Part shown: positions 19,908 through 62,643 of the stretch, piece by piece
Layout of the letters: every line of letters starts with the position of its first letter
How positions within the stretch are numbered: the first letter of the stretch is position 1
NCBI GenBank assembly: GCA_016933155.1
Contig: JAFGBM010000003.1
Coordinates: forward strand, 1-64,000
Source of the DNA: Demequinaceae bacterium
GTDB taxonomy: Bacteria; Actinomycetota; Actinomycetes; Actinomycetales; Demequinaceae
Length of the DNA stretch: 64,000 nucleotides
Direction: 5' to 3'
The notes under the pieces: model-generated
Database searches by the model: none
What the model saw: only the letters and a program-made list of their open reading frames with translations
What the model was told of the DNA's origin: nothing
Program-made: the position numbers and the translations under genes

Positions 19908-20678
19908 GTGATGGACCGACCAGATACGGGCATGGAACCGACGTGCCCCCGGCACCCCGGGGTCGTCTCGTACGTGCGGTGTCAGCGATGCGGACGACCG
20001 GCCTGCCCGGACTGTCAGCGGACCGCAGCCGTCGGCATCCACTGCGTCGATTGCGTGAAAGCCTCCCGGCAAAAGCAGAGGCCCGTCCGGTCGGGCCTGG
20101 GCCTGCCCGTCGCTCAAGGAAAGCCGATCGTCACCTACACCTTGATCGGTTTGAATCTTGCGGTCTACTTCTTGGGCCCCGCCCTGTGGGGGGAGTACTG
20201 GACGGGACGGCTGAGCCTCGTGCCTGCATTGGGCCTGGACTATGAGCCCTGGAGGTTGGTGACCTCCGGTTTTGTGCATTTCGGCTTCGCCCACCTTCTT
20301 CTCAACATGTTCGCGCTCTTTCAGTTCGGGACGGTCGTCGAGACCCTCCTCGGACGGTTGAGGTTCGGCCTGGTGTATGGGCTGTCGTTGCTGGGAGGGG
20401 GCCTGACTGTTCTGGCGCTCGGGCAGCCGTACTCCCAGCATGGTGGTGCTTCAGGGGCCATCTTCGGAGTGCTGGCCGCCTTCGTAGTCCTGAGCATCGC
20501 CCTCAAGCGCCCGGCTTACGACATCATGGTCCTCGGGGGGCTATGGTTGGCGCTGGGCTTCGTCATCGAGGGGGTCTCGTGGGAGGGACACCTCGGTGGT
20601 GCGGTCGTCGGGGCCGTGAGCGCTCTCGTCATCGTTCGATTGGGGCAGCGTTCCCGGGCCCGAGGCCGACGCCGATAA
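19908..20678 (+). CDS. Rhomboid-family intramembrane serine protease with N-terminal zinc-binding domain
   Basis: 256 residues; starts are GTG 19908 or ATG 19911. Residues ~10-50 hold a B-box-like zinc module (CPRHPGVVSYVRCQRCGRP, then CPDC and HCVDC). Six or so membrane helices follow. The rhomboid catalytic serine is Ser182 in GGASGAIFG, and the histidine is about His228 in EGHLGG. Family members cut single-pass membrane proteins within the bilayer. The substrate is unknown. It sits 13 bases after ppiA. Confidence 0.9.
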   Translation: MMDRPDTGMEPTCPRHPGVVSYVRCQRCGRPACPDCQRTAAVGIHCVDCVKASRQKQRPVRSGLGLPVAQGKPIVTYTLIGLNLAVYFLGPALWGEYWTGRLSLVPALGLDYEPWRLVTSGFVHFGFAHLLLNMFALFQFGTVVETLLGRLRFGLVYGLSLLGGGLTVLALGQPYSQHGGASGAIFGVLAAFVVLSIALKRPAYDIMVLGGLWLALGFVIEGVSWEGHLGGAVVGAVSALVIVRLGQRSRARGRRR

Positions 20679-20736: not shown

Positions 20737-20979
20737 CTACTTCCATCGCGTCGTCATGAGGAACCCCACGGTGATGAAGCCGAACCCCACAAGGAGATTC
20801 CCATTGTCGATGGGAAGCGGATACACCGCCTGAGAGATGTAGTACACGAGGATCCAGACCATGCCGATGACGTAGAACGCCGTCATGGTGGGGGTGAACC
20901 AGGCGGGATTCTTCTTCTCTTTTCCGGCCTTTCGGGGCGGCTTGTAGACCGCCTTGTCGCGCTTCTTGGATACCGCCAC
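20737..20979 (-). CDS. crgA: Cell division protein CrgA
   Basis: 80 residues, GTG start with AGGAGG six bases upstream. Two membrane helices (about 32-50 and 60-76) follow a basic cytoplasmic N-terminus. The family signature NPAWFTPTMTAFYVIGMVWILVYYIS and the end GFLMTTRWK are clear. CrgA interacts with FtsZ, FtsQ and PBPs in actinobacteria and controls septation and pole growth. Divergent from the sortase gene. Confidence 0.95.
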   Translation of the reverse strand: MAVSKKRDKAVYKPPRKAGKEKKNPAWFTPTMTAFYVIGMVWILVYYISQAVYPLPIDNGNLLVGFGFITVGFLMTTRWK

Positions 20980-21084
20980 GATTGTCCTCCTAGGAGTGGG
21001 ATTCAGGACTTCACCGAACCTAGCGTACTGATCGGCTCAAGCGATACGAGCCGACCCGGCCGCATCGTTTATCCTGTGGAAACC

Positions 21085-21951
21085 ATGGAAAAGAGCACCG
21101 AGCCGGAAGAGCACGACCTGGGGTCTCGCCTCAGGGGATCCGTCGCGTCGGTCTTCGGGGCGGTCGGAGAGGGACTCCTGACCCTCGGAATCCTGGTGAC
21201 GCTCTTCCTGGTGTGGGAGGTGTGGTGGACCGATGTCGTGGGAAGTCGACATCAACAGGACATCGTGAACGCGCTCGATTGGGCGGTACCGGCCGTCCCT
21301 GCCTGCGAACTCGCCGGCGTGTGCCCCTCGTCGACGGAGGATGCAGACCCGGGACCGGTGTACCCCGCCATCCAGGAGGACGACAGGGAACGGGAGGCCC
21401 CACCCCCGTCCGAGACTGTTCCCGGTGCCGCCGAGACCTTTGCCACCCTCTATGTTCCCCGCTGGGGCGCGGACTACATCCGTCCAATCAGCGAAGGGGT
21501 CGGGCGTCGAAGCGTGTTGGACAAGTTGGGAATCGGACACTATCCGAACACCACGCTTCCGGGCGGATGGGGGAATTTCGCAGTGGCCGGACACCGGACG
21601 ACCTTCGGAAAGCCCTTCGAACGCATCGAAGAATTGCAAATAGGGGACACGATCGTCGTTCGAACGGAATCGGCCTGGTACGTCTACCGCATCACAGAGA
21701 CCCATATCGTCCGCCCCTCCTTCGACGCAGCCATCGCCCCCGTTCCGGGGGAGAAGTTCGTAGAGCCGAACGGTCGATACATCACCCTGACCACCTGTCA
21801 TCCCAAGTATTCCGCGAGCCAGCGGTACGTGGTCTATGGAGTCCTCGACTATTGGGCCTATGCCTGGGCCGGGTATCCGCCCGAAATCCTGTCGGGCGAG
21901 GAGGACGCGGCCGATGCCATGGCAGTGGCCGAGAGGGGAGGGACGCCCTGA
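21085..21951 (+). CDS. srtE: Class E sortase
   Basis: 288 residues from the ATG at 21085 (GTG at 21076 possible). There is no ribosome site, and a TATCCT hexamer ends nine bases before the ATG, so a leaderless mRNA is likely. A signal-anchor helix spans about residues 28-45, followed by an acidic/Pro linker. The catalytic His is in VAGHRTTFGKPF. The catalytic cysteine is Cys238 in TLTTCHPKYSASQR, which also holds the Arg. Family role: transpeptidase joining LAXTG proteins to the cell wall. Its stop overlaps the next start (TGATG). A matching LASTG protein is encoded at 55.6-62.6 kb. Confidence 0.92.
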   Translation: MEKSTEPEEHDLGSRLRGSVASVFGAVGEGLLTLGILVTLFLVWEVWWTDVVGSRHQQDIVNALDWAVPAVPACELAGVCPSSTEDADPGPVYPAIQEDDREREAPPPSETVPGAAETFATLYVPRWGADYIRPISEGVGRRSVLDKLGIGHYPNTTLPGGWGNFAVAGHRTTFGKPFERIEELQIGDTIVVRTESAWYVYRITETHIVRPSFDAAIAPVPGEKFVEPNGRYITLTTCHPKYSASQRYVVYGVLDYWAYAWAGYPPEILSGEEDAADAMAVAERGGTP

Positions 21952-22113: not shown

Positions 22114-22740
22114 ATGGCCCGCATCCTCGTCATCGACAACTATGACTCCTTCGTGTACACCATCGTCGGGTACCTGCGTCAGATGGGGGCGGACACCACC
22201 GTCGTCAGGAACGATGTCCAGGCGACGATCGGGGAGGTCGACGGGTACGACGGCGTCTTGGTCTCCCCCGGACCCGGGAAGCCATCGGACGCGGGGGTCT
22301 CAGCCGAGGTTGTCCTCCGCTGTTCCGAAACGGGGACCCCCATGCTGGGAGTATGCCTGGGACACCAGGTCCTCGGCGAAGTCTTCGGGGCGGTCGTGTC
22401 CCATGCGCCCGAACTCATGCACGGAAAGACCTCCGAGGTCTTCCACGAGGGAGCGGATATCCTGGCAGGTCTTCCGAGCCCCTTCACCGCGACGAGGTAT
22501 CACTCCCTCGCGGTCGAGTCGGACACCGTTCCCGACGTTCTCGAGGTGACGGCGAACACGCATTCGGGAATCGTCATGGCCTTAAGCCACAGGTCCCTGC
22601 CCCTTCATGGGGTGCAGTTTCACCCGGAATCCGTCCTCACCGAGGGGGGTCATCGCCTGCTCGCCAACTGGCTCGCGGTGTGTGGGATGGGCAATCCCGA
22701 AGGCCGATCCCAGGGGCTCTCTCCGCTCGTCCGCGACTAG
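22114..22740 (+). CDS. Class I glutamine amidotransferase, TrpG/PabA type
   Basis: 208 residues. GGAGG eight bases before the ATG at 22114 sets the start; the open frame reaches back to 22006 through the small membrane gene. It starts ILVIDNYDSFVYTIVGYL. The nucleophile Cys is in GVCLGHQVLGE, and the His-Glu pair is in HPESVLTEGGHRLL. It supplies ammonia from glutamine to an anthranilate or aminodeoxychorismate synthase. Neither large subunit is in the window, so trpG and pabA cannot be told apart. It shares its CTAG stop with the convergent oxidoreductase gene. Confidence 0.9.
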   Translation: MARILVIDNYDSFVYTIVGYLRQMGADTTVVRNDVQATIGEVDGYDGVLVSPGPGKPSDAGVSAEVVLRCSETGTPMLGVCLGHQVLGEVFGAVVSHAPELMHGKTSEVFHEGADILAGLPSPFTATRYHSLAVESDTVPDVLEVTANTHSGIVMALSHRSLPLHGVQFHPESVLTEGGHRLLANWLAVCGMGNPEGRSQGLSPLVRD

Positions 22741-24371
22741 TCGTCGTCGAGGGAATTCTCCCGGGTCGTTGTCCTCAGAAGATGGCCGACGGCGTCCCGG
22801 CGTCTCGTCTCACGGAGGAATCCCGGCTCGATCGGGGCGTCAAGCGGCTCGTTATCGGTCCGGCCCAGGAGCAATTTCGCGGTCGCCAGCGCCGAATCAA
22901 AGGCTCCCGGGATGCCCGGGTGGGGGAACAACGAGGACCCGGGATAGAAGAGGTTCCGCACCCGCCGCGAGGCTCCGCGAGGACAAGGCCGGGTCAAGCC
23001 GTGAAAGGTGGGAGCGATCCCGAATCCGGAACCCCTCCAGGTCGAGTACTTCTCAGCGAAATCCGCAGGGGTGAGCACCTCCCCGGCCTGGGAGCGTCCT
23101 TCGAGGTCGGGAATGCCGGCCATGGCCCCCACCTGGCGGAGAAGCCGTGAGACCTGGCTGAGAAGAGCCTGTCGGCTTTCGCCTGCAGCCCCGAGGGAGG
23201 GATCGGCGGGCAAGGGCACGATGAGCACGATGGACTCCTTGCCCTTGGGGGCCAGGGCGGGGTCCGTCGCCGTCGGCCGGCCGACGTAGACGAAACCGGA
23301 AGACAAGGGATCGTCGATCGGGGTCGGGTCGAGGCCTGTCAGCGCCCGGCCCCCATTTCGGGGAAAGAAGAGATTGTGGTGGGCAAGTTGAGGAAGTCGC
23401 TTCTTGACGCCGAAAACAGCCACGAGCATCGATGGAGAGGCCTGAAGACGATCCCAGGAACCTGGAGGACGTGAGCGGAACCCGTCCGTCAAAAGGGCCG
23501 TCTCCGTGTGGTGGGGGTCGACGCATGACACCACCAGGTCGGCCGCGATCACCTCTCCCGTTCTCAGGACGACACCGCTGGCGAGTCGTGTCTCGGGATC
23601 GACGAGAATACGGGCGACATCGCTGTTGGTTCGGAGCCGGGCGCCTTCCTCGCGGGCGACCTTCTCCAGGGCCGCAATGACGGACCCGAATCCGCCACGG
23701 GGATAGCGGATCGCTCCGCACAGGTGATGAACGTACGCGGAAGAATGGGCGACCGGGGTCGTCTCGGGCGTGCCGGTGAGAGCGAGCGCCGGGAATTCCA
23801 GGATCTGCCGGATGTGGGGGTGGTGGACCGTCGCCGTGATCTCTCGGCCGAGACTTCTCATCATGATTCCCGCACACCAGACGAGATGGCGGACGACAGC
23901 AAGACGAAGGAACGACGACGGGCCCAGATAGGGGGCCCCACCTAGACGTTTGAGAATCACTTGGTGGCGTTGAGCGGCCATCAGGACGAGTCGGCGTGAG
24001 GCTTCGCCGTCCCCGGGACTCACCTCCTCGAAACGGCCCCAGATGGCCGGGGTATCGACATCGAGATCGAGCGCCTGGGCAGGGCTATCCGGGGCCTCTT
24101 CGTAGAAGGTTCGGAAGCGCACCTCCGGTTCCAGGAGATCGAGATAGTCATCGAGCCTTCTACCGACGAGGGAGAAGAAGTCTGCATAGGATTCGGGACA
24201 CAGGAACCAGGGTGACGGATCGACAACGTGGCTTCGCAGGTTGAGGGGGGCCGATCGGCCGCCGAAGTGGGGGTGACGCTCGCATAGGGTTACCTCGAGT
24301 CCCCCACGGGCCAGAAGCACGGTCGTCGAGAGGCCGACGGGGCCTCCTCCGATGACGACCGCTCGGGTCAT
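22737..24371 (-). CDS. CrtI/phytoene desaturase-like FAD oxidoreductase
   Basis: 544 residues. The N-terminal dinucleotide fold is VVIGGGPVGLSTTVLLARGGLEVTLCERHPHFGGRS, where the GGRS end is typical of the phytoene-desaturase/amine-oxidase group. The middle has PRGGFGSVIAALEKVAREEGA, and the C-terminal FAD motif is LFYPGSSLFPHPGIPGAFDSALATAKLL. Family members desaturate or isomerise carotenoids and related isoprenoids. No other carotenoid gene is in the window, so the substrate is unknown. Its ATG overlaps the pknB stop by four bases, which puts it in the kinase operon. Confidence 0.85.
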   Translation of the reverse strand: MTRAVVIGGGPVGLSTTVLLARGGLEVTLCERHPHFGGRSAPLNLRSHVVDPSPWFLCPESYADFFSLVGRRLDDYLDLLEPEVRFRTFYEEAPDSPAQALDLDVDTPAIWGRFEEVSPGDGEASRRLVLMAAQRHQVILKRLGGAPYLGPSSFLRLAVVRHLVWCAGIMMRSLGREITATVHHPHIRQILEFPALALTGTPETTPVAHSSAYVHHLCGAIRYPRGGFGSVIAALEKVAREEGARLRTNSDVARILVDPETRLASGVVLRTGEVIAADLVVSCVDPHHTETALLTDGFRSRPPGSWDRLQASPSMLVAVFGVKKRLPQLAHHNLFFPRNGGRALTGLDPTPIDDPLSSGFVYVGRPTATDPALAPKGKESIVLIVPLPADPSLGAAGESRQALLSQVSRLLRQVGAMAGIPDLEGRSQAGEVLTPADFAEKYSTWRGSGFGIAPTFHGLTRPCPRGASRRVRNLFYPGSSLFPHPGIPGAFDSALATAKLLLGRTDNEPLDAPIEPGFLRETRRRDAVGHLLRTTTRENSLDDD

Positions 24372-26365
24372 GCGCTCCCGCTCGGCGCGGGGCTTGGCGG
24401 AGGTTCCGGTCCCAAGGAGATCGTGAGGGTGACGGTCGTTCCCTCCGCGACGGAGGTCCCGGCCGAGGGGCTGGTCGAGATGACCAAGCCAGCGGCGACC
24501 GTCGTCGAGTACACCGATGTGGTTTTCGTCTGAAGCAGAGCCTGCCTGACTTGGGCGACCGCAGACGCCTCGGGATCGCCCACGACGTCAGGGACGATCA
24601 CCATGTTGACGGGGATGGCGACCTGGAGGATCACCCCGGTTCCGAAATCGACCAGGCCGGCGATGGGACTCTGTCCGATGATCGTGTCGGGGGTGGCCGT
24701 GCCGTTCTGGACCTCTTCGATCTCGTAGGGCAGACGGATGCTTTCGAGGAAGGTGATCGCCTGCTCCTGCGTTCGACCCTTGAGATCTTGAAGCATGACC
24801 TTTCCGCTGGAGACCTTGATGGTGATTTCGGCACCCTCCTCGACGGCCAGGCCCTTGCCCGGATCCGTCCCCGTGACGAATCCCGCCGGAATGTCCAGGT
24901 CGCCGTTGACCTCAGTCGTTCCAGCGACGACGAGGCCGGCATTCTCGATGGCCGCCTGGGCCTCCTCGAGGCTGAGTCCTCGGACATCGGGAACCGAGAG
25001 TTGGTTCTCATCCACCGAGACGTAGATGGTGACGGTCGATCCCGCTTCGACAAGGGTCCCCTCGGCAGGGGAGCTCCGGATGACCAGTCCCCATTCGACA
25101 TCGGGATTGACCTCACCCTCGACCGAGCCGACAAGGCCGAATTGATCGAGAAGTTCCAGCGCCTCTCCCTGCGTCATGTTCCGAACGTCCGGAACCGACA
25201 CATTGGCCGTCCCGTCCCCACCCTTCGGTCCGGCAAAGGTGAAAAGGGCCATGACGGCGGCGACCGCAGCCGTGACTGTGGCGATGAGAAGGAAAAGGTG
25301 CCCAATGCGCCGGCCGCGATCGTTGACTTCGACGTACTCATCGAGAGGGTTGCCGCCGGTCGGTGTGCCCGCACCTCCCGCACCTCCCGTACCTCCGGCG
25401 AGCTTGGCCGCACCGGGATTCGCACTGGTCGCGGCGAGGACGGCGGATGCCCCCGCTCCTGTGCTGGCAGAGCCGACGGGGTACTGGCCTGTCGTGGGTG
25501 ACAGGGGACGGCCGGCCATGAAGGCATTGAGATCGCCGAGGAACTCATGCGCCGACGAGTACCTCTGGCCTCGATCCTTGGTCAGGGCTCGGCGGACGAT
25601 GAGGTCCAGGGCGGGAGGGACGTCGGGGGCGAAGTCCGAGGGGCTGGGGGCGGCCTCCCGGACGTGTTGATAGGCGACAGAAACGGGGGAGTCACCGACG
25701 AAGGGGGGCCGTCCACAGAGAAGTTCGAAGAGGACACAGCCTGCGGAGTACAGATCCGAACGGGCATCAACGTTCTCTCCCCGGGCCTGCTCCGGGGATA
25801 GGTACTGCGCCGTGCCGACGACCGCCTGCGCCTGCGTCATCGTCTGCCCCACATCGGCGAGGGCACGAGCGATACCGAAGTCCATGACCTTGACTGCACC
25901 AGTGGGGGTCAGCATGATGTTCGCGGGCTTGATGTCTCGGTGGACGAGCCCTGCAGCATGGGCGTATTCAAGACCGGTCAGGACGCCGGAGAGAATCTCG
26001 ACGGCCTCGTCGATCGGGGCGGCCGCGCCCTCCTTGAGGATGTCCCGAACCGTATGCCCTTCGACGTACTCCATGACGATGAAGGGAACGACCTGGCGTT
26101 CCCCCGTCGGCAGGGCGACGCTTTCCTCCCCGGTGTCGTACACCGCCACGATGGCGGGATGGTTGAGTCCGGCAGCCGCTTGTGCCTCACGGCGGAACCT
26201 GGTCTGGAACGAAGGATCACGGGCGAGGTCGGGTCGAAGGATCTTGATCGCGACGGTGCGCCCGAGCCGTGTGTCGTACCCGATGTGGACCTCGGCCATT
26301 CCGCCCCGGCCGATGAGCTCACCCACCTGGTATCGATTGGCCAGCAACCTGTTTGACTCAGTCAT
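24368..26365 (-). CDS. pknB: Ser/Thr protein kinase PknB with PASTA repeats
   Basis: 665 residues from the ATG at 26365 (an ATG at 26407 has no ribosome site). The kinase domain spans about residues 10-275: GRGGMAEV glycine loop, VAIKIL lysine, HRDIKPANIM, DFGIARA and YLSPEQARG. A Gly/Thr-rich linker and a membrane helix near residue 350-375 follow. Four extracellular PASTA domains come after, beginning at SVPDVRNMT, SVPDVRGLS, LQDLKGRT and VPDVVGDP. PASTA domains bind muropeptides or lipid II. The kinase controls cell-wall growth and division. The tail is Pro/Ser-rich. Confidence 0.95.
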   Translation of the reverse strand: MTESNRLLANRYQVGELIGRGGMAEVHIGYDTRLGRTVAIKILRPDLARDPSFQTRFRREAQAAAGLNHPAIVAVYDTGEESVALPTGERQVVPFIVMEYVEGHTVRDILKEGAAAPIDEAVEILSGVLTGLEYAHAAGLVHRDIKPANIMLTPTGAVKVMDFGIARALADVGQTMTQAQAVVGTAQYLSPEQARGENVDARSDLYSAGCVLFELLCGRPPFVGDSPVSVAYQHVREAAPSPSDFAPDVPPALDLIVRRALTKDRGQRYSSAHEFLGDLNAFMAGRPLSPTTGQYPVGSASTGAGASAVLAATSANPGAAKLAGGTGGAGGAGTPTGGNPLDEYVEVNDRGRRIGHLFLLIATVTAAVAAVMALFTFAGPKGGDGTANVSVPDVRNMTQGEALELLDQFGLVGSVEGEVNPDVEWGLVIRSSPAEGTLVEAGSTVTIYVSVDENQLSVPDVRGLSLEEAQAAIENAGLVVAGTTEVNGDLDIPAGFVTGTDPGKGLAVEEGAEITIKVSSGKVMLQDLKGRTQEQAITFLESIRLPYEIEEVQNGTATPDTIIGQSPIAGLVDFGTGVILQVAIPVNMVIVPDVVGDPEASAVAQVRQALLQTKTTSVYSTTVAAGLVISTSPSAGTSVAEGTTVTLTISLGPEPPPSPAPSGSA

Positions 26366-26418
26366 CCCGTCCCTGTCGTCTCGGCGTACCGTGCCCCATT
26401 CTCGCATCCATTCAACGA

Positions 26419-55647: not shown

Positions 55648-58600
55648 CTAGTCGGCCTCGCGACGGCGGGAGGCCCCCATGAACATGACTCCGAGGGCCA
55701 CGAGGGCGAGGGCTATTCCAATCCTCCACCCCAGGGCGACAAGGCCCGTCGAGGCGAGTTCGAACCGGATCTGGATCGTCGCGTCGTCGATCGCGGAGAA
55801 CGTTCCTGCCACGAGGTTGGCCGGATCGGTCCACTCGACCGTGGCGACGTTCTGCAGGGAGCCGGACGAGGCAGACGGGTGGACCGTGGCGGTGAGGTGG
55901 ATGTTCGGCGTGGTCCGTCCCCTGGCGAGGGCCCCGTCGAGGATGCATTCCAGGGTGCCGCCGTAACCCTCGACGTCGGTCCCCGTGAGCGTGCAACTCA
56001 GCCAGTCCGGAACCGTCGGATCGGCAGACGCATCGATCACGATCGAATCGACGCGGAGGCGGGGAGGAATCGGGTCCGTCAGGGTGACGTCGTCCGTCGA
56101 GCCGTAGGACATGCTCTGGACGTTGATGGTATAGGCCATCGCCGAACCCGGTTCCACGATAAGCGGTACGGCGTTTTTGTTGACGATGAGGTTGGGAGCG
56201 GTCGTGGAGTCGTCCGTGTTGTTGGCGGGGTCGGGGTCGGGTGTGGTCGAGGTCACGGTAGCCGTGTTGAGGTCGGCATTCGTCCAGGTCGGGCTGGCCT
56301 GAACCTCCAACTCGAACCACGTCGATCCGCCCACGGGAAGGGTCCCCCCGTTGGAATCGAGTGAGCAATCGACCTGCGTGGGATCCGCGATGTTCACCAC
56401 GCAGGTCCAGGTGTCAGCGGGAGCCATGTCGACAAGGCCGACATAGGTGAGATCGGCGGGAAGCTGGTCCAAGACGGTTACGTCGAGGGCGTCCGAAGGG
56501 CCGTTGTTGACGATGTCGACCCGGAACGTCCCTGTACCGGCGGCGGGGATGTCGAGGGACGTGGTCGTCTTGACGAGCGCAAGATCGGCATTGGTGCCGA
56601 CGGGGTCGGAGGTCGTGTCGGTGTTGTTACCGGGGTCGGGATCCGGGGTCGGATGAACGACTGTGGCGGTGTTGTCAATGGTGCTCGTGACGTCAGACAG
56701 GATGGTCGCCTCGACGGTCAGGGTGGGAAGCGACGCCCCGACCAGGAGGGTCGCCGTCGACCAGGTGCAGACGAGGTCGCCGGCCAAGGTTACGGGGTTG
56801 CACGCCCAGCCGACACCGCTCGTGCTGATCGAAGCCCAATCGAGGGTTGCAGGGAGAGTGTCGGTCACGGTGAAGGAGGTTGCGGCGACGGAGGGGCCGT
56901 TGTTGGTGATGTCGATGTCCCAGGTGATCGTGTCGCCGGCAAGGAAGGGCGCACCGATGGACGTCTTCACGAGTTCGACATCGGCGACGATGACGGTCGA
57001 AGCCGGGTCGTCGTCGGTGTTGTTCGTGAGGTCGAGGTCGAGGGTCTCGTTGCTGACGGTTACGGAGTTGTCGAAGTTGGATCCGACAACGAGGTCCGCC
57101 GGCAGGGTCACGTTGACGGTGATGATCGGGAGGGCCCCGCCGTTCGCCAAGGGCCCAGCGTGGGTGAAGGTCACCTGACCCGGCACCGACGTATCGTCGC
57201 TCCAGCCCACACCGGTGAAGCCTGTATACGTCGCGTCGGCCGGGAGCGTATCGACGACGACGAAGGGGCCGACCGCTTCATCGGGGCCGTCGTTCGTCAC
57301 CGTGACGGTCCACGAGAATGCCGAGCCTGCTGTCGGGTCCCCCACGTGGGCCTTGTCGATGACGACGTCGGCCCGGTTGATCGCAACCGATGCGCTCGTC
57401 GAGTCGGTGTAGGGGCCGCCCGAGTTCCCGGACGAGCCCGAGGAGTCGTCGACCGTGACGGTCACATCGTTCGTGTGGGGGAAGAAGGACCCGGTGTTCG
57501 CGACCGTCCACGTGGCCCCCGCGTCGGGGCGGGCCGTATAGACGATCGTCAGGGACTCAGTCGGGTCGAGGTCCGGGAAAGCGGACCACGTCAGGTCCTG
57601 CCCCGCGATCGCTGGATCGGCCGCCGGCGCGCCGTCGACGGTCGTGGAGCCCGCGTCGTATACCCAGTTGGCCGGTAGGGTGTCGACGACCTCGACGTTC
57701 TGCGCGAGGCTGTTCCCGTCGTTCGTCACGACGATGGTGAACGTGTGCCGGACTCCCACGTACGCCAAACCCGCCGCAGGGGTCTTCGTGATCGTCGGAT
57801 CGGGGAAGTCGGGGGTGACGACGGCGTCGGCCGTCGGACCCGTGTAGGTCCGGAGTTCATCGTCATCGAAGCCGGGGGTGGAGAGCGGGTGGGAGGTGAA
57901 GCCCGTGACCTCGGCGACGTTTGTCAGGGCGGAGCCGTCGAGCGTCGTGGACGGCGCGAGGACCGCTTCGTACGTGAAGGTATGCGCATTCGGGGCCCCG
58001 GTCGCGAGGCTCGCAAGGCTCCACGAGATGGTTCCTCCGCCCGTGATGGGGTCTTCTCCTGAGAGGGTTCCCCCGCTGGCGATGACGGTCGCCTCGTCCA
58101 CAACGACACCGATGGGGACGACATCCTCGAAGGTCACGGCGTAGGCGGTGGAGGTGCCCGCATTCGTCGCCGTGACCGCGTAGGTGAAGGTCTCACCCGG
58201 GGCGACGGTGTCGGTATCGAGGCCGTTGACGAGCTTGGCAATGGTGACATCGGGCTCGACGACGGTGACGGTCGCGTCATCGGGCAGGGTCGCCGCATCG
58301 GGGGTGTAGGAGGCGTCGGCCGGAGGCCCGACGATGTCGTTCGTGGTGTTCCAGCGGAGGATCGCCGTGTCGACGATCGTCGCCGCGTCGACGTTCGCGG
58401 GGACGTCGAGGACGGTTCCCGTGTAGGTGATGGTGATGGTCCGGGTGTCCGCGTTGGAGAAGATGTCGCCGAGCCACCAGCCGATGTTCGTCCCGCTCGG
58501 AGTCAGGGCCGCGCCCCCGCCGGGCAGGTCGCCGAGGCAGCTTCCGCCACCGCCGTAGGAGCACGTCATGTTGACCCCCGAGACCGCGAGTCCGGCGGGC

Positions 58601-61600
58601 ACATCGTCGATCATCGCGGCGTCGTAGAAGTTGACATCCGCGGGCAGGGTGGTGGAGATCGAGTACGAACGCTCCTGGCCGATCGTCGCCGTCGGGGCGT
58701 CGACATCCTTCACGAGCGGTGCTCCGAGGACGGTGACGGACTCGGTTCCCGTGGTGGTCTGGACCGCTCGGTCGGTGAGTGGGTCGTCGAGGCTGTAGCC
58801 CGTGAGCCTCGCGGTGTTGGTGTAGGTCGCAAGACCAGCCGACGCCGGTGAGACCGTCGCCGTGTACGTCAGGGTTTCGTAGTTGGCAGACCCGGAGAGG
58901 AGGGTTCCGACGTCCCAGACGATTCTGGTCCCCGAACAGCTGACGTCCGGAACGATCGCGGCGCTGCCCTGGGATGGCACCCCGAGGGCGACCCCCGTGA
59001 GTTCGACGGGCACGCAGTCGACGACGACGGTGTCGTAGAGGGTCGGTCGGATGTTCGTGTTGACGTTTCGGGCGGTGAGGGTGTATGTGACCGTCTGACC
59101 CGCGGTGACACTGTCGTCGTTGACGAGCTTGACGATGGTGGGGTTAGGCGTGATGACGTAGATCCCGCTGGTGGCGGTGATGTTCGGCTGGGTCGAACTT
59201 GCGAAGGTCGCGGTGTCGTTGCGACGAATGGTCGTGCTGTGACCCCAGGTAGCGGCGCCCCGGACATGGACGTAGAGATGGACGGAGAAGACTTGGTCGG
59301 TGTCCGTCGCGTTCGTGTAGAGCGCGGGAAACGTCAACTCCCCGTCGGAGGTGTCGATGGAGAAGGTGTCGGCGCCGACGAGGAAAGCCCCGTTCGCCCC
59401 AGGCGCGGTCGAGCCGCCGGGGTAGTCGACCGTGATGAAAGCGGACTCGACGATCCAGTTGGCTGGTGTGGTGAGGGCGTCGGAGAGGACGCCGTTCTGA
59501 ACGGACGAGTGAGCCGGAATCGTCACGGAATAGGTGAAGTGGATGATCTCGCCCTTGACCGCCTGGAGTGCCGTGTTATTGGTATCGAGGGGCGACGTCA
59601 CACTCTTGGCGATCGTTGCGGAAGGCAGGTAGACGTTCGAGTCGTCGCGCGTATAGGTACCCAAGGTGTTCCACAGCAGGGCAAGGGATGTGTCGAATGA
59701 ATCCGTCGGATAGTACGTCTGGGCGTTCGGGTCGACCGAGGTGTTGATCGCGCCGGTGTAACTGATGATGGAGGCCGTATTGTCGTGGCTCGTCGCGACG
59801 GAGGTTCCGACGGGGATCGTGACGTCATAGGTCAGGGTGCGTTGGGCCTCCAGAGACGCCCCGACATAGGGGACGTCGATCCCGGTCCAGATGACGACGG
59901 AGCGGGTGTTGAGGGTCGGGTCCATCCCCGCCGGGTAGCCGGGATCGCCGGGATCGTAGGCGGTTCCGCCGTCGCTTATCGCGGAGACATCGGCCGTCGT
60001 GATACCCGCGGGAAGAACATCCCACACGACGGCGTTATCGGCCTCGTACGGCATCGTGTGGAGGTCGACCCGATAGGTGACGACCTCGCCCTCCCGCACC
60101 ATGATGCCGTCGCGATTGGATGCAAAGACCGTGCCGTCCGGATCGTCCTCGGACAGGGCTGTTCTGGTCGAGGACACACCCGCGCCATTGTCCTCGACCT
60201 CGAGAACGCCCTTGATGAGTTCGAGTTCGGGCTGGATCTCGATCTCGGCCTGGTCACGCAGGAAGTACAGAACGCCCTCGACGTTCTGCTGGCGGTACTT
60301 CATGAGGTTCTCGGGCTTGTCGAGGATAGGCCCGCTCGAGGGTGCATCGACGGTGGCCCACAGGTCGATGACGAGGGTCTGGCCGCGGGTGACGTAGAGG
60401 TCGGGGTTGACGAGGTCCCCGAGGTGTCCGAGCCTCCATTCGAGCCGACCGTCGGCGGCGTGGGTCGCGTCTTCCTGGATCTCCCCCGGCGGCACGGTGC
60501 TGAGTCCCGCGTTGATCTCGTGTCCGGCATAACTGAGTCCACGGGGCAGGAAGTCCGTGACGACGGGGTTGCGGACATCGATGGACAACGGAAAGTTCAC
60601 GGTCAACTGGAAGCACACGGTGTCGCCGAGGCGGAACCCGAGTTCGGGTCCGGCGACGAACGTCCCGTTCGTGCATGGGTTGGTCCCGGGGGGGAGGCCG
60701 ACATCGACCTCGTCCCGCGGCATGACGAGTTTGCTGATGGTTGTGAGGTCGGAGCCGATACCGGCACCCGAATCGTCCCAGACGAACCAATCGTCGGGGA
60801 ACCAACTGAGGAGATCGGGGATCGCATAATCCGTGGCGTCGAACTCGACGGTGTTCCCAAATCCGTCACCCGAGGTCGTCGGCCCGTAGACGCTTGGGGC
60901 GAGTTCGTATGTGTCGCGGTTGAGCGCATCGAAGACGATGTCGTGGGTCTCGTTCGGTCCCAGGATGAAGTCGTCGGGATTGGGGTAGGCAACCGAGGTC
61001 GGGCGGAACACGATGACGAACGTGCCGTCGCCGTAGGCGTCGACGGAGATCATGTCGGCGCCCGTCACGGTTCCGACGACGAGACACTCGGCGGGCACGG
61101 TGATGCCATCGTGCTCGGTCAGGATCGTGCCTGCCGGCATGAGAGGGCAGAGTCCATTGGGAAGGGTGTCGGTGAGGACGATGTCCTCTGAATTCATGTA
61201 CTCGCTCTGACTCAGGCGAAGGTTGAAGCCCGTCAGTTGTCCGACCTCGAATGGGTCGCCGCCCGTCACGGACTTGACCACCGCGAGATCCATCGCATAG
61301 ATGGTGTAGTCGGCGCGGTCCGGCGTCGCCCGATCGGCTCCCGTGCGGACGATGCCCTGGTAGTCGCCGATGACGTTCGCGATGTTCGTCCAGGTGTCGC
61401 CGTCGACGTGGGTGGCGATGTCGCCGTGCCGGGTCGAGGGCCCGTTGTTGTTGTCGAGGTTGGCGGTTTGGCCGAGGGAGGCGGCGCTCGGGGCACCCCC
61501 GACCCCATCCCACGTGACGGTGTTCTCGTACAGGGGGACTGCGGCTGCGTAGCGGACCAATCGGGTCTCCCCGGCCGCGAGCGTCCCGAGGTCCCACGTC

Positions 61601-62643
61601 ACCTGGGTGTACACCTCTCCGACCATCACTCCGTAGGCGGTGGCGAGCGCGGCGTCGGCGACCACCGTGTCGACGCTCAACGGAATCGGGCAATTCACCG
61701 GGATGAGAGGGGTCGCAGTGAGGCGCGGGGCACCGTTGTATTCGTTGACCAGGGCATCGCCGAGGTCACGATCAACGGTCGAGTTGTCGCTCAGGCCGCA
61801 GCCGAGGTACTCCAGGCCGGCGGGGATGTGGTCGACGAGGATGACGTCGTCAGTTGGGCCCTCGGTCGTGTTCCGAATGGTGATGGTGTAGACCGTGGTC
61901 TGATCGTGGACGCCTCGGGGGAGTTCGGACTCCGGGTGGGGCTCGGACTTGGTCATGTCGAGGGCGATCATGTCCGTCGTCGCCGTACTCGGGCCCTCCT
62001 CCGTGGTCTCGCTCTCGGCGATCGGGCCCCCAACCCCCGTCGATCCGTTGAAAACCGGCAGGTACGTCGGGTCGCCGCTCAGGGCCGCGTAGGCATCCAC
62101 ATCGAAGGTGGAGCCGACGGGGAAGACGTCGATGTCGGAGGTCTCGACCGTGCCCGTCGCGTCGGGGGGGATGGGCTGGGTCGGGAAGACGGTGACAGAG
62201 ACACCGTAGGTCCCGCCTGCGGGGAGGTCCGAGACGTCCTCCCACACCCACCGCTTCATGCCGGCGGGAAGGGGCGTTGGTGGGGGGGTGAGCGCGTCGT
62301 AGACGACGGGGTCCCCCAGGCTCGAGGAGTCGAATTCGATCCCCTCGGGGACGTCGAGGATGAGGGCGAGGTTGAATCCGTCGGTCGCTCCAGTGTTCGA
62401 TGCGGTGATCGTGTAGGTCGTCGTATCCCCGGCGATGACCTCGCCGCCCCCGCCGATGGAGACCGTCATCGTCGGGGGGACAGCCGAAGCAGAAGGGGCC
62501 GTCGCGACGACGGCCAACGGGCTCAGGACGAGAAGGGCGAGAAGGATTCGAGAGCATGCTCGGGCGATGGAGAAATGAGGGTCAGCACCCAATCGTGGCT
62601 GACCCTCTTGCCGGCGAATCCTCGCCAGGCCGGAGGCCCTCAT
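55648..62643 (-). CDS. Giant secreted DUF11-repeat surface protein with LASTG sorting signal
   Basis: 2331 residues. A long N-region leads to a signal-peptide core (SRILLALLVLSPLAVVATAPSASA), with cleavage likely after SASA. About 14 DUF11-like modules follow, each with a TYTITxxNTG-type strand and a DTLPAGL-type turn. Those after residue ~1350 are the most regular. The protein is rich in Thr, Asp and Val and poor in Lys. The end reads LASTG (2296-2300), a 24-residue hydrophobic helix and RRREAD, a complete sortase signal of the LAXTG form. Predicted: a wall-anchored fibre or adhesin. The function is inferred only. Confidence 0.85.
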   Translation of the reverse strand: MRASGLARIRRQEGQPRLGADPHFSIARACSRILLALLVLSPLAVVATAPSASAVPPTMTVSIGGGGEVIAGDTTTYTITASNTGATDGFNLALILDVPEGIEFDSSSLGDPVVYDALTPPPTPLPAGMKRWVWEDVSDLPAGGTYGVSVTVFPTQPIPPDATGTVETSDIDVFPVGSTFDVDAYAALSGDPTYLPVFNGSTGVGGPIAESETTEEGPSTATTDMIALDMTKSEPHPESELPRGVHDQTTVYTITIRNTTEGPTDDVILVDHIPAGLEYLGCGLSDNSTVDRDLGDALVNEYNGAPRLTATPLIPVNCPIPLSVDTVVADAALATAYGVMVGEVYTQVTWDLGTLAAGETRLVRYAAAVPLYENTVTWDGVGGAPSAASLGQTANLDNNNGPSTRHGDIATHVDGDTWTNIANVIGDYQGIVRTGADRATPDRADYTIYAMDLAVVKSVTGGDPFEVGQLTGFNLRLSQSEYMNSEDIVLTDTLPNGLCPLMPAGTILTEHDGITVPAECLVVGTVTGADMISVDAYGDGTFVIVFRPTSVAYPNPDDFILGPNETHDIVFDALNRDTYELAPSVYGPTTSGDGFGNTVEFDATDYAIPDLLSWFPDDWFVWDDSGAGIGSDLTTISKLVMPRDEVDVGLPPGTNPCTNGTFVAGPELGFRLGDTVCFQLTVNFPLSIDVRNPVVTDFLPRGLSYAGHEINAGLSTVPPGEIQEDATHAADGRLEWRLGHLGDLVNPDLYVTRGQTLVIDLWATVDAPSSGPILDKPENLMKYRQQNVEGVLYFLRDQAEIEIQPELELIKGVLEVEDNGAGVSSTRTALSEDDPDGTVFASNRDGIMVREGEVVTYRVDLHTMPYEADNAVVWDVLPAGITTADVSAISDGGTAYDPGDPGYPAGMDPTLNTRSVVIWTGIDVPYVGASLEAQRTLTYDVTIPVGTSVATSHDNTASIISYTGAINTSVDPNAQTYYPTDSFDTSLALLWNTLGTYTRDDSNVYLPSATIAKSVTSPLDTNNTALQAVKGEIIHFTYSVTIPAHSSVQNGVLSDALTTPANWIVESAFITVDYPGGSTAPGANGAFLVGADTFSIDTSDGELTFPALYTNATDTDQVFSVHLYVHVRGAATWGHSTTIRRNDTATFASSTQPNITATSGIYVITPNPTIVKLVNDDSVTAGQTVTYTLTARNVNTNIRPTLYDTVVVDCVPVELTGVALGVPSQGSAAIVPDVSCSGTRIVWDVGTLLSGSANYETLTYTATVSPASAGLATYTNTARLTGYSLDDPLTDRAVQTTTGTESVTVLGAPLVKDVDAPTATIGQERSYSISTTLPADVNFYDAAMIDDVPAGLAVSGVNMTCSYGGGGSCLGDLPGGGAALTPSGTNIGWWLGDIFSNADTRTITITYTGTVLDVPANVDAATIVDTAILRWNTTNDIVGPPADASYTPDAATLPDDATVTVVEPDVTIAKLVNGLDTDTVAPGETFTYAVTATNAGTSTAYAVTFEDVVPIGVVVDEATVIASGGTLSGEDPITGGGTISWSLASLATGAPNAHTFTYEAVLAPSTTLDGSALTNVAEVTGFTSHPLSTPGFDDDELRTYTGPTADAVVTPDFPDPTITKTPAAGLAYVGVRHTFTIVVTNDGNSLAQNVEVVDTLPANWVYDAGSTTVDGAPAADPAIAGQDLTWSAFPDLDPTESLTIVYTARPDAGATWTVANTGSFFPHTNDVTVTVDDSSGSSGNSGGPYTDSTSASVAINRADVVIDKAHVGDPTAGSAFSWTVTVTNDGPDEAVGPFVVVDTLPADATYTGFTGVGWSDDTSVPGQVTFTHAGPLANGGALPIITVNVTLPADLVVGSNFDNSVTVSNETLDLDLTNNTDDDPASTVIVADVELVKTSIGAPFLAGDTITWDIDITNNGPSVAATSFTVTDTLPATLDWASISTSGVGWACNPVTLAGDLVCTWSTATLLVGASLPTLTVEATILSDVTSTIDNTATVVHPTPDPDPGNNTDTTSDPVGTNADLALVKTTTSLDIPAAGTGTFRVDIVNNGPSDALDVTVLDQLPADLTYVGLVDMAPADTWTCVVNIADPTQVDCSLDSNGGTLPVGGSTWFELEVQASPTWTNADLNTATVTSTTPDPDPANNTDDSTTAPNLIVNKNAVPLIVEPGSAMAYTINVQSMSYGSTDDVTLTDPIPPRLRVDSIVIDASADPTVPDWLSCTLTGTDVEGYGGTLECILDGALARGRTTPNIHLTATVHPSASSGSLQNVATVEWTDPANLVAGTFSAIDDATIQIRFELASTGLVALGWRIGIALALVALGVMFMGASRRREAD

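Follow-up and report, generated by a model that had tools for sequence, protein, structure and literature searches.

Genes and features of the locus

The window, namely the whole stretch of 64,000 nucleotides of Demequinaceae DNA that was analysed, carries a class E sortase gene and the gene of a giant surface protein ending in a candidate sorting signal, with the following features:

20737–20979, minus strand: crgA, 80 aa, next to the sortase gene; best CrgA model matched over residues 1–80 with 79.2 bits, under its curated cut-off of 109
21085–21951, plus strand: class E sortase (SrtE), 288 aa; NF033747, 232.1 bits against a cut-off of 160; His170, Cys238, Arg247 and Tyr153
22114–22740, plus strand: pabA/trpG-type glutamine amidotransferase (PF00117), the next same-strand gene after the sortase
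24368–26407, minus strand: pknB, PASTA-domain Ser/Thr kinase (NF033483, 614.6 bits)
55648–62643, minus strand: giant surface protein, 2331 aa, with an N-terminal signal peptide, eight DUF11 stretches and isopeptide-type domains (TIGR04226)
55744–55758, minus strand: LASTG sorting pentapeptide, residues 2296–2300, with predicted cleavage between T and G
55648–55743, minus strand: remainder of the sorting signal, made up of the hydrophobic helix, the basic SRRREAD tail and the stop codon; match E 3.0e-13 to a tail profile that includes this LASTG tail itself

The initial annotation had recognised one class E sortase in the window, and this assignment was upheld by the score above the NF033747 cut-off and by the alignment of the catalytic residues. 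Against the models of other classes, the same sortase reached 62.8 to 69.4 bits for class D and 49.9 bits for class C. His170, Cys238 and Arg247 align with His251, Cys320 and Arg329, the catalytic residues of Streptomyces coelicolor SrtE1 (5CUW), and Tyr153 aligns with Tyr229 of the same protein, the β3/β4 tyrosine for which a hydrogen bond to the alanine of LAxTG has been proposed (PMC5148588). The corresponding GHY tyrosine was kept in all 30 related class E loci inspected. An alternative in-frame start of srtE is possible upstream, at 21076. In the whole assembly (1,885,200 bases in 15 contigs, 99.83% complete), the sortase family model PF04203 gave one match at E 0.01 or better, which was that of the window.

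When gene order was read at loci around gyrA, the succession crgA (minus), srtE (plus) and pabA (plus) was found in 21 other Actinomycetota genomes, with pknB (minus) next where the locus extends, and therefore the sortase gene lies in its usual place. In three Curtobacterium loci (L327, L338 and L343) and one of Actinotalea lenta (L301), all with the usual crgA/pabA order, no srtE was detected between this pair of genes; in the three Curtobacterium loci crgA and pabA lie almost side by side, which resembles clean gene loss. As for pabA, the open reading frame listing begins at TTG 22006, and the homologous part is obtained from the ATG at 22114. Between pabA and pknB, at 22737–24371 on the minus strand, lies a gene of the CrtI (phytoene desaturase) family, whose start overlaps the pknB stop by 4 bases and which was not found in any other locus around gyrA examined. 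The nearest named relatives by GyrA were a Demequinaceae MAG and Demequina species, at 73–79% identity, which makes membership of Demequinaceae probable.

The DUF11 model (PF01345) matched the 2331-residue protein with 317.6 bits in eight separate stretches, and three stretches of the protein matched the isopeptide-forming domain model TIGR04226. When the eight DUF11 domains were aligned, the Lys and Asp of the isopeptide triad were invariant and the Asn was present in seven. The AlphaFold model of one of these domains (mean pLDDT 86.5) had the solved CLIPPER domain 9IFR as its best structural match (E 5.9e-7). Tandem DUF11 domains carrying the Lys-Asp-Asn triad, as expected of a CLIPPER/DUF11 fibrillar stalk, are thus present, and both DUF11 and DUF7507 are described as stalk domains of fibrillar adhesins (PMC12617251). 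Pfam recognised no known adhesive domain in this protein. The flanking genes encode an aldo/keto reductase and a Na/H exchanger. A sortase-assembled pilus was considered and rejected, because the single sortase of the genome leaves it without a class C enzyme and the neighbours of the LASTG gene are unrelated.

Translation of the minus-strand frame confirmed both the position and the order of LASTG, hydrophobic helix and RRREAD reported in the initial annotation, the tail reading LASTGLVALGWRIGIALALVALGVMFMGASRRREAD*. The protein therefore combines a signal peptide, called by eye from MRASG...ASA, with a C-terminal pentapeptide, a hydrophobic helix and a basic tail, and LASTG is its sole L[AP]xTG in 2331 residues. 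When the last 50 residues were shuffled, LAxTG arose with a frequency of 0.44%, and the complete signal, with motif, hydrophobic stretch and basic pair in this order, with one of 0.019%. The Pfam model Gram_pos_anchor (PF00746) did not report the LASTG tail at E 10 or better; it is a recognition aid that does not strictly define sortase substrates, and it is weak for such tails, since that of a second giant protein, ending LAGTG, also fell under its cut-off (15.6 bits against 20).

Sorting signals in the genome and in its relatives

A codon search for all LAxTG and LPxTG patterns returned 74 + 22 + 64 + 22 = 182 sites in the genome, which were read in frame. The full signal (motif, helix and basic tail) was found at two of them, namely LASTG in the window and LAGTGDDVAAQALVAAVLVAAGLLLIFLSRRRREEQA, containing LAGTG, on contig C11. 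A tail profile recovered the same two tails with E values of 1.5e-14 and 3.0e-13, which are not independent evidence for them since the profile was built from seven tails including both; the next matches were partial, at E 0.3 or worse. Motifs of the LxxSG type and other variants were covered by this profile alone. Other open frames combining an L[AP]xTG close to the C-terminus with a tail of fair hydrophobicity were discarded: L033 reads as a multi-pass transporter, L030 as a permease-like protein, and L103 and the short frames are without the ordered signal.

The LAGTG frame (L116:7229–10033) comprises 934 residues, mostly DUF7507 repeats, and runs off the end of contig C11. At the end of contig C4, a 1021-residue frame from GTG (L195:4152–7214) shows a signal peptide-like N-terminus and the same repeats. 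Near-identical repeats have probably split one DUF7507/DUF11 gene into these two frames, the join itself being inferred. The search of the genome for other sortases and LAxTG proteins suggested in the initial annotation accordingly returned no second sortase and one further tagged protein, and a different sortase beside other LAxTG genes, which had been named there as evidence against the pairing, was looked for and not found. The DUF11 fibre remains a likely substrate, as had been claimed, but not the sole candidate, given the second giant protein ending LAGTG.

Orthologues of the DUF11 protein were searched in 47 genomes of the family with its C-terminal 401 residues as query. Matches were obtained in six other genomes, with the tail visible in five: LAASG in a genome of the same genus, and LATTG, LALTG, LSMTG and LAVTG in four of the same family. 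The position of the pentapeptide was kept in all six proteins compared (these five and that of the window), its letters varying within L[AS]x[TS]G; the sixth match, in genome G030, was weaker and is excluded from this count. The same-genus LAASG departs from T at P1. That orthologue is found in genome G001 (contig C66, locus L227), where nine tail matches were obtained at E 0.5 or better, against four in the studied genome.

Of 149 related genomes, 136 gave a class E model match at E 1e-5 or better, a few of these matches falling below the family cut-off. Strong tails, defined by a tail profile E below 5e-4, were present in 70 of the 136 genomes with a class E match and in none of the 13 without (Fisher P 1.9e-4), the sortase status of the 13 being set by the class E model only, including the classes that it cross-detects. 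The tail model was built partly from sequences that it then finds in this family; outside the family, tails were found in 36 of 90 genomes with a class E match and in 0 of 12 without (P 0.007). Over the whole set, P was 0.04, 0.0007 and 0.025 at tail cut-offs of 1e-5, 1e-3 and 0.01, respectively. All these P values depend on the cut-off and are uncorrected for phylogeny, and they overstate the evidence because the genomes are related to one another.

The initial annotation had stated that class E sortases prefer LAXTG rather than LPXTG, which proved too strict. An automatic count over 31 tails from the best matches gave 14 LAxTG, six LSxTG, five LPxTG and one LAxSG, with five lacking a counted motif within the stretch examined, some of which visibly hold xPxTG-like or LPxTG sequences. 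Moreover, the class E sortases of A. missouriensis and B. bifidum are thought to use LPVTG (PMC13251363) and [L/I/V][S/A/P]XTG (PMC8603203), respectively. Class E enzymes in the relatives probably also use LSxTG and LPxTG. Motif class alone was therefore rejected as proof of pairing, since LSxTG and LPxTG tails also occur in these relatives; LAxTG fits a class E enzyme without by itself excluding other sortases. Support for the pairing comes more from the lack of a second sortase than from motif class.

Probable pairing of the sortase with the giant protein

The proposal that the class E sortase of the crgA-pknB block serves the giant fibre agrees with its being the sole sortase, with the class E Tyr153 and with the signal kept in the orthologues. 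Anchoring of the LASTG fibre by this sole sortase is well supported by these sequence features and is the most likely explanation. Very probably, the DUF11 protein is a wall-anchored fibrillar stalk, attached at LASTG by the class E SrtE, with the LAGTG protein treated likewise. According to this model, the 2331-residue protein would be exported by Sec, and its DUF11 (CLIPPER-type) domains would fold as Ig-like beads arranged in a row, with internal isopeptide bonds between Lys and Asn as a probable source of stiffness. The hydrophobic helix and the RRR tail would hold the C-terminus in the membrane, where the class E enzyme of the crgA-pabA-pknB block would cleave LAST|G and join the threonine to a peptidoglycan precursor, leading to the presumed wall attachment. 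The same enzyme would most likely anchor the second giant protein. What the sequence shows directly is an ordered and conserved motif, a sole sortase, and the catalytic residues and tyrosine of that enzyme; cleavage, wall attachment, isopeptide bonds and a role in adhesion are inferred.

It could be argued that the C-terminal helix simply anchors the protein in the membrane, acting as a stop-transfer sequence, and that LASTG is incidental and never processed by a sortase, given that LAxTG alone appears by chance at the shuffle frequency of 0.44% and that the pentapeptide varies among orthologues (LAASG, LSMTG). However, motif, helix and basic tail follow one another in order, all six members keep the motif position, the second giant protein has the same arrangement, and strong tails track class E presence across the relatives, which makes such an anchor improbable. 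Less probable still is processing of the LASTG protein by another sortase (class C of pilus type, class D or class F) that the assembly fails to show. Although the genome lies in 15 contigs, whose ends interrupt at least one gene, its near-complete sequence holds the single PF04203 match, and the aldo/keto reductase and Na/H exchanger genes form no pilus cluster, so this case is very unlikely. Processing by a rhombosortase, for which the rhomboid gene at 20058–20678 would be the candidate, has a negligible probability and was rejected: its weak TIGR03902 match of 49.3 bits lies under the cut-off of 84, and the tail bears no GlyGly-CTERM signature, LASTG being of the sortase type.

With anchoring by the class E enzyme as the preferred reading, there is about an even chance that the whole output of the sole sortase consists of two giant stalk proteins of the isopeptide type, which would amount to a minimal system of one enzyme and two fibres in a small-genome lineage. 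If so, this would be an unusually simple setting in which to ask what a class E housekeeping sortase is retained for. Such a pairing is commonplace in this bacterial group and opens no new mechanism; the small addition is that the substrates of the enzyme here seem to number just two, both giant stalk proteins. A giant surface protein nevertheless gains its likely anchoring enzyme, and further evidence is provided for the use of LA, LS and probably LP signals by class E enzymes in Actinomycetales. Furthermore, comparing all sortases with all sorting signals genome-wide can link enzyme and substrate when their genes are far apart.

Relation to known systems

The separation of the sortase from its likely substrate, pointed out in the initial annotation, does amount to 33.8 kb between the sortase gene and the LASTG motif, but it is not notable, being expected because housekeeping sortases of class E are already known to lack clustering with their substrates (PMC8603203). 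BF1_0427, the housekeeping class E enzyme of Bifidobacterium bifidum, is likewise unclustered, and its [L/I/V][S/A/P]XTG signals are comparable to the LA/LS/LP spread in the relatives of the studied genome; B. bifidum also has pilus class C sortases, whereas the studied genome has none (PMC8603203). The SrtE1/SrtE2 system of S. coelicolor is alike in the class E catalytic residues, the β3/β4-loop tyrosine and the LAxTG signals of its substrates (PMC5148588). These substrates are chaplins rather than giant DUF11/DUF7507 stalks, and S. coelicolor has two class E and five class F sortases, in contrast to the one sortase found here (PMC5148588).

The fibrillar adhesins with CLIPPER (DUF11) and CLIPPER_2 (DUF7507) domains differ from the window protein, which has no terminal adhesive domain recognised by Pfam, but they share with it the signal peptide, the tandem stalk, the conserved Lys/Asp and the C-terminal sorting signal (PMC12617251). 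In the survey of isopeptide-stalk proteins, LA.TG was already among the sorting motifs searched (PMC12617251).
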